The position numbers were made by a program, and so were the translations under genes. Below are positions 2,072 through 43,766 of a DNA stretch of 64,000 nucleotides, one piece after another; the stretch's first letter is position 1; each line of letters opens with the position of its first letter. Source of the stretch: Azonexus sp. (GTDB taxonomy: Bacteria; Pseudomonadota; Gammaproteobacteria; Burkholderiales; Rhodocyclaceae); assembly GCA_030696345.1 (NCBI GenBank), contig JAUYSK010000019.1, positions 124,001 to 188,000 of the forward strand, written 5' to 3'. The notes beneath the pieces were generated by a model. That model made no database searches. It worked only from the letters and a program-made list of their open reading frames with translations, and was not told the DNA's origin.

Positions 2072-4783
2072 TTATTCTTCCGGTGCCGGCAAGGGCACCG
2101 TGAAAATGAAATTCGCACCCGCTCCGGGCTGACTTTCAACCCAGAGATTACCACCAAAATATTCGACAATCTGCCGGCTGATCGGCAAGCCGAGACCGGT
2201 TCCTTGCGGCTTGTCCGTCATCGTGTTTCCGCCCTGACGGAATTTCTCGAAAATGACCACACACTCTTCCGCCGTCAGCCCCGGGCCGTTGTCCGAAACC
2301 TCAACCCGAACGACTTTTTCATCCCAACCTACCCTGACGCCGACCCGTCCATTCCCGCCGGGAACGAACTTCACTGCATTTGAAAGCAGGTTGATCATGA
2401 CCTGAGTCAGGCGGTCGCGATCAGCCAGCACGGCGGGACAGGAATCAGGAATATCCCCGGCCAGTTCGACGCCCTTTTCCCGGAACAGCTGACCGAGCGT
2501 CGCCATGCTTTCACGAACGACTTCGCCGATATCGACTTCGCCGGTCGTCCATTCAGCCCGACCGGATTCCATCTTGGCCATATCGAGAATCTGGTTGATC
2601 AGCCGGGTCAGTCGCTCGGCTTCGCTGACGATGATGCCGAGGAAGCGGGTTCGTGCTTCAAGCTCCAGGCGCGGGTCTTCATGCAGCATTTCAGAAAGCG
2701 CCCGAATCGAGGTCAGCGGAGTGCGTAATTCGTGGGTGACCGTCGAGATGAAATCATCCTTCATCCGGTCAAGCTCGCGCAATCGATCGTTCGCCTGACG
2801 GAGGTCGGCAGTTGCCGCTTCCAGTTCCTGCTGCTTGGCTTCCAGATCACGGCTATAGGCACGCACCTGGGTCGCCTCGTCAAGAATATCGAGCACCTCA
2901 TCCAGCCCGAGGTCTTCCTCCTGCGCCACCGACGCCACCATTACCCGGGCACTGGCCGAGCCAATTGCCCCGGCCAGTTCCGCCTCGGCAAAATGGACAA
3001 AGTCGGCATCAGCAGGCAAGCCGTGCCAGTCTTTCGCGCCGCGGGACTGGGCGTAAACCCCCAATTGCTGGCGCGCACGCGCCGGACCGAGAAAGCGCTC
3101 AAGCAGCCCGACCAGTGCATCAACTGAAGCATTGCCCCGCCACAAGCGGCTATCCGTTTCCCGCTGGGCATGCCTGAAAACATCGACAAAACGTTCAGCC
3201 TGACCCGCCTCTACGGCGTCTGGTCGCGAATTGAGCGATACGCCGACATAGCAACCGATATTGGCCAGCAGGCTCCACCACAGACAATGCGAGATCTCGT
3301 CCATTCCGCTCAGACCGAAAAGCGCCTGCGCCTTCATCCAGCTGATGCCGAACAAGCCCTGTTCGACAAATCCACTGGTGATCCAGCCGGACTTGGCAAA
3401 GGATGGCAGCAACAAGGTGTACAGCCAGATACCGAAGCCTGCCAGCAAGCCGGCCACGGCACCTGCCCGTGTCCCCTGCTTCCAGTACATGCCGCCAAAC
3501 ATCGCCGGCGCGAACTGCGCTACAGCGGCAAATGAAATCAGGCCAATGCCAACCAGGGCGTAAGCCTCACCGGCTGCCCTGAAATAAATGTAGCCAAGCA
3601 ACAGGATCACCGCGATGGCAACGCGCCGGATGCCGATCAACAGCCCGGAAAGGTCCTGTCGTTTTTCGACCTGCAGCCACGTTGACCGCAGCAACCAGGG
3701 CATGACCAGATCGTTGCAGACCATCGTCGACAAGGCGATGGTTTCGACAATGACCATCCCGGTCGCCGCCGACAGTCCGCCGATGAAGACGAGCAACGCG
3801 AGCGCTTCGGCCCCACGAGCCATGGGCAGGGTAAGTACGAAGGTGTCAGGATTTAAATTCTGCCCCTGAAAATGCAGCAGGCCGCCCAGCGCCAGCGGCA
3901 GCACAAAAATATTGATCAGCAGAAGATAGAGCGGAAAAAGCCAGACCGCCCGCTTGAGATGTGACTCATCAACATTCTCGACAACGATGATCTGGAACTG
4001 ACGCGGCAGAAAGATGATTGCCAACCCGGAGAGCAAGATCATCGCCGTCCACGTCCCGGCCCGGCTCGAATCAAGTTGCAGCAGACGAGCAAGTTCCGGA
4101 CTCTCGGCGGCGCGCTGGAAAAGATCCGAGAAGCCGCCAAACATGCCGTAGGTAACGAACAAGCCGACGGCCATGAAGGCCACCAGTTTGACCACCGACT
4201 CGAAAGCTACCGCAGCGACCATGCCTTCGTGCCGTTCGGTTGCATCAAGGTGGCGGGTCCCGAACAAAATGGTAAAAAGAGCAAGCACTGCGGCAATCAG
4301 CAGCGTCGAGTCCAGCCACCAGGGCAGAAATTTATCGTCCGAGTACTGAAACAGCACATCAAGGCTGGCAGAAACCGCCTTGAGTTGCAGCGCGATATAA
4401 GGCACCACGCCGATCACCGCAATCACCGTTACCAGGCCGGCCAGTAGCTGGCTCTTGCCGTAACGTGACGCAATGAAGTCGGCAATCGACGTAATGCGAT
4501 AGGCCTTGCTGATGCGAATCATCTTGATGATGACCCCGACAAACATCAGCATCAGCGTCGGACCGATATAGATGGTCAGGAATGACAGACCACCGGAAGT
4601 CGCCCGGCCGACACTGCCGTAAAAAGTCCAGGAAGTGCAATAGACCGCCAGCGACAGGGCATAGACGTTGGCCGAAATGATCGACCGGCCGGCATCGGCC
4701 CGCGCATCGCCAAAGCGGGCAACCGCAAACAGCACCAGAACGTAGGCGGTCGACAGCGCGGCAACGAACCAACCCGAAAGCAA
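2072..4783 (-). CDS. Sodium:solute symporter-histidine kinase hybrid (CrbS/CbrA family)
   Basis: N-terminal multi-TM SSS region; C-terminal HisKA H-box (FISTVTHELRTPLTSIRALSEML) and HATPase (NLLSNAVKF, VSDNGPGL, GTGLGLPISRQIV); next to acs. Confidence 0.9.
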   Translation of the reverse strand: MLSGWFVAALSTAYVLVLFAVARFGDARADAGRSIISANVYALSLAVYCTSWTFYGSVGRATSGGLSFLTIYIGPTLMLMFVGVIIKMIRISKAYRITSIADFIASRYGKSQLLAGLVTVIAVIGVVPYIALQLKAVSASLDVLFQYSDDKFLPWWLDSTLLIAAVLALFTILFGTRHLDATERHEGMVAAVAFESVVKLVAFMAVGLFVTYGMFGGFSDLFQRAAESPELARLLQLDSSRAGTWTAMILLSGLAIIFLPRQFQIIVVENVDESHLKRAVWLFPLYLLLINIFVLPLALGGLLHFQGQNLNPDTFVLTLPMARGAEALALLVFIGGLSAATGMVIVETIALSTMVCNDLVMPWLLRSTWLQVEKRQDLSGLLIGIRRVAIAVILLLGYIYFRAAGEAYALVGIGLISFAAVAQFAPAMFGGMYWKQGTRAGAVAGLLAGFGIWLYTLLLPSFAKSGWITSGFVEQGLFGISWMKAQALFGLSGMDEISHCLWWSLLANIGCYVGVSLNSRPDAVEAGQAERFVDVFRHAQRETDSRLWRGNASVDALVGLLERFLGPARARQQLGVYAQSRGAKDWHGLPADADFVHFAEAELAGAIGSASARVMVASVAQEEDLGLDEVLDILDEATQVRAYSRDLEAKQQELEAATADLRQANDRLRELDRMKDDFISTVTHELRTPLTSIRALSEMLHEDPRLELEARTRFLGIIVSEAERLTRLINQILDMAKMESGRAEWTTGEVDIGEVVRESMATLGQLFREKGVELAGDIPDSCPAVLADRDRLTQVMINLLSNAVKFVPGGNGRVGVRVGWDEKVVRVEVSDNGPGLTAEECVVIFEKFRQGGNTMTDKPQGTGLGLPISRQIVEYFGGNLWVESQPGAGANFIFTVPLPAPEE

Positions 4784-10745: not shown

Positions 10746-10972
10746 ATCTCTTCCATACACAATCGATCGTTCTGCGCGATCGCTAAAATGCTATGACCAA
10801 TTGGATAGTCTAATTCATTCGGCAACAACGCGTTCAGTTATTGATATGCCATTTTGCGAACGCGGTTGAACTTATCGATTACATCTCGGTCAGATTTCGC
10901 AGCCTGTTGATTTTTTCCCTGTCTTAAGCCACATTTCAACCTCGCCTCTCCAAACTGATCCCCCATCCAACA

Positions 10973-11077
10973 ATGATCATAAAACGCCCACGCTCTCTGC
11001 ATTATCTGGTAGCACCGTCGGTCGTCGTGCGCGTCGTTGTCGTAGGCGTCGTAACACACGCGTCGCGGATCGGTTAA
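10973..11077 (+). CDS. ilvBN leader peptide (Val-rich, 34 aa)
   Basis: MIIKRPRSLHYLVAPSVVVRVVVVGVVTHASRIG*; 10 Val codons, followed by a strong terminator immediately upstream of ilvB. Confidence 0.88.
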   Translation: MIIKRPRSLHYLVAPSVVVRVVVVGVVTHASRIG

Positions 11078-11100
11078 GGAAGAGCAGACAGATTTCCCCA

Positions 11101-11136
11101 AACCCCGCCGGCGCAAACCGGCGGGGTTTTGTTTTT
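11101..11136 (+). terminator. Attenuator terminator of ilvBN
   Basis: AACCCCGCCGG-CGCAAA-CCGGCGGGGTTTTGTTTTT: 11-bp perfect stem and T-tract between leader ORF and ilvB. Confidence 0.92.
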
Positions 11137-11176
11137 GGAGCCCGCCGGTTGAGCCAACAACCCCAAGGAGAACTCC

Positions 11177-12847
11177 ATGACAGAAACCCTGAACGGTGCC
11201 CAGATCACCATCCACCTGCTTGAACGCCAAGGTATTCGTACCGTGGCCGGCATACCGGGCGGCGCCATCCTGCCTATTTACGATGCACTGGGACAGTCGA
11301 CCATCATCCACCATGTGCTGGCCCGTCACGAACAAGGGGCTGGCTTCATGGCGCAAGGAATGGCCCGGGTTACCGGCCAGGCTGCTGTCTGCCTTGCCTC
11401 CTCCGGCCCCGGCGCGACCAACCTGCTGACCGCCATCGCCGACGCCAAACTTGATTCGATTCCACTGATCGCCATCACCGGTCAGGTGCCACGTGCCATG
11501 ATCGGCACCGACGCCTTTCAGGAAGTCGATACCTACGGTTTAAGCATCCCGATTACCAAACACAATTTTCTGGTGTCCTCCGCCGAGGAACTGCTGGCGG
11601 TGATTCCCCGCGCTTTCCAGATTGCCACCTCCGGACGGCCCGGCCCGGTGCTGATCGACATTCCCAAGGATGTGCAGACTCAGGCGATCGAGATCACCGA
11701 ATGGCCGGAACCCGGTACCGCCCTGCCCGCCATTCCTGCTGATTCGCGGCTGATCGCCGAAGCAATCTCGATGATCAATGCCGCCGAGCGGCCCATCCTT
11801 TACCTCGGTGGCGGAGTGGTGCACTCCGGGGCAGCGAGTGCTGCGGTCGACCTCGCAGAAAAGGCAAATTTGCCTACCGTGATGACCCTGATGGCGCTCG
11901 GCGCAATGCCGGTTGATCACCGACTATCGCTCGGCATGCTGGGAATGCACGGGGCCCGCCACACCAATCTGGCGCTCGATGAATGCGACCTGTTGATCGC
12001 CGTCGGCGCCCGCTTCGACGACCGGGCAACCGGCAAGGTTGCCGCGTTTTGCCGCAACGCGAAGATCATCCATATCGACATAGACCCGGCCGAACTCGAC
12101 AAGATCAAGGCAGCGCATATCGGCATCACGGCCGATGTGAAGGAGGCGCTGAATCAGCTTCTGCCCGGCGTCGAGAGGAATAGCCGAAAAATCTGGGTTG
12201 ACCGCATCGACCAGTTGCAGGCTCAGTTTCCTTTCCGCATCCCGGAGGACGACAACCCACTGTCGCACTTTGGTCTTATCCGCACTGTGGCCGCCTGCCT
12301 CGATGACGACGCGATCATCGCCACCGACGTCGGCCAGCACCAGATGTGGGTGGCGCAGTATTACCCGCTACGCCGGCCACGCCAGTGGCTGACTTCCGGC
12401 GGACTGGGCACGATGGGCTTCGGCGTACCGGCCGCCATCGGCGCTGCGCTGGCGGCTCGCGATAAAACCGTTGTCTGCTTTACCGGTGACGGATCGATCA
12501 TGATGAATATTCAGGAACTGGTTACCGCTGCCGAGGAAAACGTCAATCTGAAGATCGTGCTGATGAACAACGCTACGCTGGGTCTGGTACATCAGCAGCA
12601 GACGCTGTTCTACGGTGAACGCCTGTTCGCCTCCCAATTCAAATCGATGCCTGATTTTGTCAAAATCGCCCAGGGATTCGGCATTGCTGCGGTCGACCTC
12701 GATCTGGCGACAAATCCCTGCGCTGCCCTGATGGAGGCCATCGCCCGCCCCGGCCCCTGCCTGATCCACGCCAGCATCGACGCCGAGCAGAAAGTCTTCC
12801 CGATGGTTCCACCCGGTGCCGCCAACCACGAAATGATTGGACATTGA
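11177..12847 (+). CDS. ilvB: Acetolactate synthase large subunit
   Basis: MTETLNGAQITIHLLERQGIRTVAGIPGGAILPIYDAL...GDGSIMMNIQELVTAAEENVNLKIVLMNN; ThDP-binding AHAS. Confidence 0.95.
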   Translation: MTETLNGAQITIHLLERQGIRTVAGIPGGAILPIYDALGQSTIIHHVLARHEQGAGFMAQGMARVTGQAAVCLASSGPGATNLLTAIADAKLDSIPLIAITGQVPRAMIGTDAFQEVDTYGLSIPITKHNFLVSSAEELLAVIPRAFQIATSGRPGPVLIDIPKDVQTQAIEITEWPEPGTALPAIPADSRLIAEAISMINAAERPILYLGGGVVHSGAASAAVDLAEKANLPTVMTLMALGAMPVDHRLSLGMLGMHGARHTNLALDECDLLIAVGARFDDRATGKVAAFCRNAKIIHIDIDPAELDKIKAAHIGITADVKEALNQLLPGVERNSRKIWVDRIDQLQAQFPFRIPEDDNPLSHFGLIRTVAACLDDDAIIATDVGQHQMWVAQYYPLRRPRQWLTSGGLGTMGFGVPAAIGAALAARDKTVVCFTGDGSIMMNIQELVTAAEENVNLKIVLMNNATLGLVHQQQTLFYGERLFASQFKSMPDFVKIAQGFGIAAVDLDLATNPCAALMEAIARPGPCLIHASIDAEQKVFPMVPPGAANHEMIGH

Positions 12848-12848
12848 A

Positions 12849-13160
12849 ATGAACGCCATCAACCGCAATGAACAACAAGCCATTTCCCGCGCCGTGCTGG
12901 AAATTGATGTCAATAATCATCCGGGCGTGATGTCGCATGTCGTCGGCCTCTTCTCCCGGCGCGCCTGCAACGTCGAGGGCATTCTCTGCCTGCCGCTCGA
13001 AGACGGAAAGCAGAGCCGGATATGGCTGTTGCTGAACGAAGACGCGCGCCTGCCGCAAATGGTCAAGCAGGTGGAGAAACTGGAAGACGTCATCAGGGTT
13101 CGACGCCACCCTGGCGATCACGCCGTCTTCTGTCAGTTGGAGGGATTCTTCCGGCCCTGA
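12849..13160 (+). CDS. ilvN: Acetolactate synthase small subunit
   Basis: [57 protein letters not shown]-domain IlvN. Confidence 0.93.
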
Positions 13161-43690: not shown

Positions 43691-43766
43691 GCGTTCTTAG
43701 CTCAGTTGGTAGAGCGTCTGCCTTACACGCAGAATGTCGGCGGTTCGAGCCCGTCAGGACGCACCA
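43691..43766 (+). tRNA. tRNA-Val (anticodon TAC)
   Basis: GCGTTCT...AGGACGC acceptor stem, TCTGC-CTTACAC-GCAGA anticodon arm, GGTTCGAGCC T-arm, encoded ACCA. Confidence 0.96.

Follow-up and report, generated by a model that had tools for sequence, protein, structure and literature searches.

Introduction

In enterobacterial attenuators of the trp and his type, the position of the ribosome on control codons picks between mutually exclusive hairpins, and in Escherichia coli ivbL-ilvBN the control codons form a valine run with a central arginine (VVVRVVVV), followed by a terminator, ilvB and ilvN. For proteobacterial attenuators, the principal comparative work is reportedly that of Vitreschak and others from 2004. 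A leader ORF with alternative terminator and antiterminator structures also stands upstream of ilvB in Corynebacterium glutamicum, where the transcript is leaderless, an antiantiterminator is present and control codons are few (Leu CUU, Val GUA) (PMC11857589, PMC10272879). The acetohydroxyacid synthase (AHAS) I encoded by E. coli ilvBN was found essentially only in gammaproteobacteria in a 2017 survey of 70 genomes, in which each sampled betaproteobacterium had a single AHAS (PMC5727371). Our literature search, which went without many subscription papers, returned no paper on an ilvBN attenuator for the betaproteobacterial family considered here.

We describe a locus in the window, by which we mean the whole 64,000-nucleotide stretch of Azonexus sp. 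DNA analysed, whose layout closely follows that of ivbL-ilvBN. We are confident that transcription of ilvBN is controlled here by a ribosome-mediated attenuator that responds to charged tRNA-Val and is homologous to its E. coli counterpart. Systems of this kind are known; the lineage is new, and the attenuator is widespread in the family. It shares with the C. glutamicum attenuator the leader ORF and the alternative structures upstream of ilvB, and differs from it in operon (ilvBNC in C. glutamicum) and in AHAS type.

Results and Discussion

A valine-rich leader and an intrinsic terminator precede an AHAS-I operon

The leader ORF (10973..11077, + strand) comprises 34 codons and translates as MIIKRPRSLHYLVAPSVVVRVVVVGVVTHASRIG*. 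Ten of these codons are for valine, and, in agreement with the clustering in the second half pointed out in the earlier note, nine of them fall within the 11 codons of the putative regulatory run VVVRVVVVGVV (11021..11053, +). The corresponding codon pattern, (GTN)3 NNN (GTN)4 NNN (GTN)2, has a single match in the 3.96-Mb genome, which is the leader itself, with zero control matches. The upstream sequence holds no in-frame ATG, GTG or TTG earlier than the ATG at 10973, and no Shine-Dalgarno sequence precedes that ATG, as had already been noticed; a clear one is also missing in the close relatives inspected. The frame, the start and the codon bias of the leader are conserved. Upstream of the leader, a putative sigma-70-type promoter (TTGATT - 17 - CACATT, 10907..10935, +) with a weak -10 element resembles the TTGxxx-17/18-[CG]ATA[AG]T of close relatives, where its distance to the leader ATG is about equal to that in the window; we treat it as a lead rather than as proof.

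Starting 22 nt after the leader stop codon, an intrinsic terminator hairpin (11100..11129, +; AAACCCCGCCGG-CGCAAA-CCGGCGGGGTTT, then TGTTTTT) folds into a perfect 12-bp stem of -23.9 kcal/mol and runs into a T-tract (11126..11136, +). The perfect hairpin and T-tract described earlier upstream of ilvB are thus borne out, with the stem corrected from 11 to 12 bp and the spacing from 23 to 22 nt. The ilvB gene (11177..12847, +), preceded by a Shine-Dalgarno sequence AAGGAG (11165..11170, +), encodes the large subunit of AHAS I (NCBIfam PRK08155, 1010.8 bits against a cut-off of 870), and ilvN (12849..13160, +) encodes the small one (PRK08178, 153.7 bits against 128); as both exceed the AHAS I equivalog cut-offs, the leader precedes an AHAS-I ilvBN operon. 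On other contigs the same genome carries two further copies of an AHAS large subunit, 41-42% identical to ilvB (contigs C12:416808-418484 and C23:754-2430), whose upstream sequences resemble each other and, inspected by eye, show no valine-rich leader. These copies may reflect a duplication or a mixed assembly, the estimated contamination being 4.66%.

The leader is present at nearly all AHAS-I loci of the family

AHAS I (E <= 1e-180) was found in 74 of 151 family genomes, about half, giving 75 loci since one genome has two, and at 8 further loci among 369 genomes of the class. For each match we took some 600 bases of upstream sequence and assigned the most valine-rich short ORF in it as the leader, a procedure under which single start-codon assignments may be off. 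A valine- or valine/leucine-rich leader followed by a terminator hairpin is present at 81 of the 83 loci (73 of 75 in the family, 8 of 8 elsewhere in the class), with mixed valine/leucine leaders at a few of them (L116, L147, L151, L152 and L028). The earlier note had proposed aligning family ilvB leaders and had named relatives without a valine-rich ORF or terminator as grounds against its reading; the alignment shows a conserved valine-rich core, and both elements are there at those 73 loci. A leader of this kind likewise occurs in enterobacteria, in Tepidiphilus and in Candidatus Accumulibacter, the best named relative, with an IlvB 75% identical to that of the window. A valine-rich leader with the same terminator arm also accompanies an AHAS-I gene in an Opitutaceae (Verrucomicrobiota) MAG (L014, upstream of position 3001), which points to a unit transferred as a whole or else to mis-binning.

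The valine-rich leader is missing at two family AHAS-I loci (L134 and L143). The IlvB proteins of the leaderless loci L134/L178 and L143/L199 pair together (100/100 in both trees), and one leaderless gene is a second copy in a genome (G141) that also has a leader-bearing one.

Valine codon choice in the leaders is skewed. GTA accounts for 361 of 644 valine codons (56%) in the leaders of the 73 family loci and for 107 of 1205 (9%) in the 40 long ORFs of the window, where it is rare; the window's own leader uses it for 3 of 10. Attenuators are known to have biased control codons, for which selective charging of isoacceptors has been given as the reason (PMC1183508). The GTA preference may instead, or in addition, keep G-rich GTG runs off the C-rich arm. 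The window also contains, at 43691-43766, a gene for a tRNA-Val that reads GTA (anticodon UAC).

The end of the leader pairs with the terminator 5' arm

At almost all loci the last part of the leader, around the stop codon, can pair with the 5' arm of the terminator, which is strongly conserved across relatives (CCCCGCCGGCGC). In the window this antiterminator consists of 18 pairs, formed between the last leader codons with the stop (GCGUCGCGGAUCGGUUAAGGAAG; 11060..11082, +) and a strand that overlaps the terminator 5' arm (11093..11114, +). In a structure-free MAFFT alignment of 71 loci, pairing holds at its six core positions in 400 of 425 cells (94%). Sliding the strands by 1-3 columns lowers this to 20-45%, and 2000 shuffles give 91.7% (sd 0.4, max 93.4%); the gain over the shuffles is small because the terminator arm is so conserved. 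The informative part of the pairing evidence lies in compensatory changes: in ten loci GCGYCG:CGGCGC is replaced by GCACCG:CGGTGC, the third pair passing from G-C to A-U, a state that one of the ten, L167, shows outside the family, and the Tepidiphilus type carries its own version of the helix (CCGGAGGG:CCCTCCGG). Duplex energies with the own partner are stronger than with swapped ones, none of 10000 permutations, which ignore relatedness, being as good. The folding energy of the whole leader is ordinary (z -0.8 for the window alone, z 1.0 in a second test) and was therefore not used as evidence.

The antiterminator first suggested for this leader, a pairing of UCGGUU with AACCGG, was rejected: AACCGG belongs to the loop and 3' arm of the terminator, and the helix that relatives support is a longer one between the leader end with its stop codon and the 5' arm.

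Two other readings leave the peptide without a part. If the hairpin were a plain terminator or insulator next to a chance valine-rich ORF, with ilvBN expressed mainly from a downstream promoter or by constant read-through, the lack of a Shine-Dalgarno sequence would be readily accommodated, as would a terminator that is always the equilibrium fold (see below). We nevertheless consider this very improbable in view of valine-rich leaders at 81 of 83 loci in a whole-genome search, the antiterminator covariation, the GTA bias and a valine pattern that occurs once in the genome of the window. A riboswitch, in the sense of a ligand-binding RNA, or a protein-bound leader with an incidental peptide, would likewise explain a conserved structured leader before a biosynthetic operon and an antiterminator that forms in a model lacking the ribosome; here RNA conservation goes no further than the valine codons and the strands of antiterminator and terminator, while the upstream half of the leader varies in length and sequence with its frame kept, and no Rfam family was matched. 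We hold this reading, too, to be very improbable. Searches with the window and seven relatives returned no known RNA family or riboswitch; the window's only hit, to 'sar' and below threshold (21.4 bits, cut-off 43), is on the opposite strand.

A ribosome-position model places the switch at the end of the valine run

To return to the attenuator, folding for mutually exclusive structures, another check put forward in the earlier note, shows in silico that antiterminator and terminator share the 5' arm. We used a model in which the ribosome footprint is blocked codon by codon and the RNA is folded at the stage when the terminator 3' arm has yet to emerge. When the A site is at one of the valine codons of 11021-11048, the antiterminator has a probability of 0.72-0.84, which falls to 0.48 at the last valine codon (11051) and to 0.00 from 11066 to the stop, so that the switch in the model coincides with the end of the valine run, as expected of an attenuator. 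Across relatives, the fold model of the stalled state places the 5' arm in the antiterminator at 86 of 91 loci. Once the 3' arm is present, the terminator is favoured at equilibrium for every ribosome position up to the T-tract (P 0.96); as it is always the equilibrium winner, the choice between the two structures must, according to the model, be kinetic. The antiterminator also forms in a model without any ribosome (P 0.84), and superattenuation is therefore predicted to be absent, a point on which the trp system differs. The control codons, for valine, likewise distinguish the locus from trp- and his-type attenuators, with which it shares the principle of ribosome-position-dependent choice, and the window fold model shows no clear protector (1:2) hairpin.

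From the leader, the terminator, the conserved exclusive pairing and the codon bias read in the sequences, we infer a mechanism that includes leader translation, stalling, termination, a valine response and a kinetic order of events. When valine is plentiful, the ribosome would reach the leader end and mask 11060-11082, keeping the antiterminator from forming, whereupon the hairpin at 11100-11129 would form and transcription would end. When valyl-tRNA is scarce, the ribosome would stall at 11021-11048, the antiterminator 11060-11082:11093-11114 would form ahead of 3' arm emergence, and the polymerase would continue into ilvBN. Leader, terminator and antiterminator are conserved at about 90 loci, which strongly supports the original proposal of an ilvBN attenuator controlled by valine.

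A segment beyond the terminator matches its 3' arm

Downstream of the T-tract, the segment 11141..11150 (+; CCCGCCGGTT) is the full complement of 11116-11125 in the terminator 3' arm, which makes it a candidate read-through lock. Tested against dinucleotide shuffles at 89 loci, the match attains p<0.05 at 24 of them and p<0.2 at 57, compared with 2 and 10, respectively, of 52 unrelated terminators put through the same test, and a control segment upstream of the leader gives a mean z of 0.0. Compensatory changes occur at some loci (CCGAG:CTCGG at L090, L091 and L093; GCCGACGG:CCGTCGG at L159). In the window model with a stalled ribosome, inclusion of the segment (3' end at 11165 instead of 11138) lowers the terminator from 95% to 4-10% of the fold, turning the stalled state into the antiterminator plus a new hairpin; with the ribosome at the stop and the segment included, the fold remains 92% terminator. 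A full flip of this kind was obtained at only 11 of 91 loci, and the claim of a general thermodynamic lock was dropped. Lying beyond the termination point, the segment can have no part in termination as such; it might make the read-through RNA more stable or hold the stretch ahead of the ilvB ribosome site in a single fold. That it acts as a fifth strand, capturing the terminator 3' arm after read-through and locking the antiterminated fold, is a tentative idea that we think rather unlikely to hold.

The attenuator is very probably related by descent to ivbL-ilvBN

The likeness to E. coli ivbL-ilvBN drawn in the earlier note holds for the layout and, beyond it, very probably reflects descent. 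Shared features include the valine run with its central arginine, the order of leader, terminator, ilvB and ilvN, the terminator 5' arm (CCCCGCCGGCG), its pairing with the stop-codon region and the AHAS-I enzyme. The window leader differs from IvbL in its N-terminal half, which is without the Leu-Leu pair found there, in a frame that continues beyond the antiterminator start to a later stop, in the absence of a Shine-Dalgarno sequence and in its host, a betaproteobacterium. The window peptide matches neither PF08049 (IlvB_leader; cut-off 25 bits) nor NCBIfam NF007579, both of which recognise E. coli IvbL. Relatives with leaders ending in VVVRVVVxVGNAP or similar, like enteric IvbL (...VVVRVVVxVGNAP*), give sub-threshold matches to PF08049 (14.7-19.9 bits, E 0.0006-0.025), and the IlvB of these GNAP-type loci groups with enterobacterial IlvB (98/96 in a first tree, 98/97 without long outgroups). 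These two observations make homology of leader, terminator and enzyme to ivbL-ilvBN very likely.

An attenuator functioning as proposed, arisen independently of ivbL by convergence, would account for the unmatched window peptide and the unrelated N-terminal halves of the leaders. Weighing against this are the same AHAS-I subfamily downstream, a near-identical terminator 5' arm and loop (ACCCCGCCGGCGYAAACCGG), an antiterminator at the same place, the stop codon, and the intermediate leaders, whose IlvB is sister to the enteric one; we hold an independent origin to be unlikely.

Enterobacterial IlvB falls inside the betaproteobacterial set (bootstrap 98/97). A tree constrained to betaproteobacterial monophyly of AHAS I, with the enterics excluded, is 9 log units worse, and the AU test does not reject it (p 0.23). 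A transfer of AHAS I from a betaproteobacterium to enterobacteria is thus plausible from these trees. The distribution of AHAS given in the 2017 survey (PMC5727371) fails for the family of Azonexus.

Significance

The textbook attenuator is extended here beyond enterobacteria, to a family in which 74 of 151 sampled genomes have AHAS I, and the compensatory changes in the antiterminator lend it comparative support. Because the leaders favour GTA so strongly, theories of selective tRNA charging can be put to the test in a further lineage. Finally, the placement of enterobacterial IlvB inside a betaproteobacterial set with the same leader bears on the origin of E. coli AHAS I.
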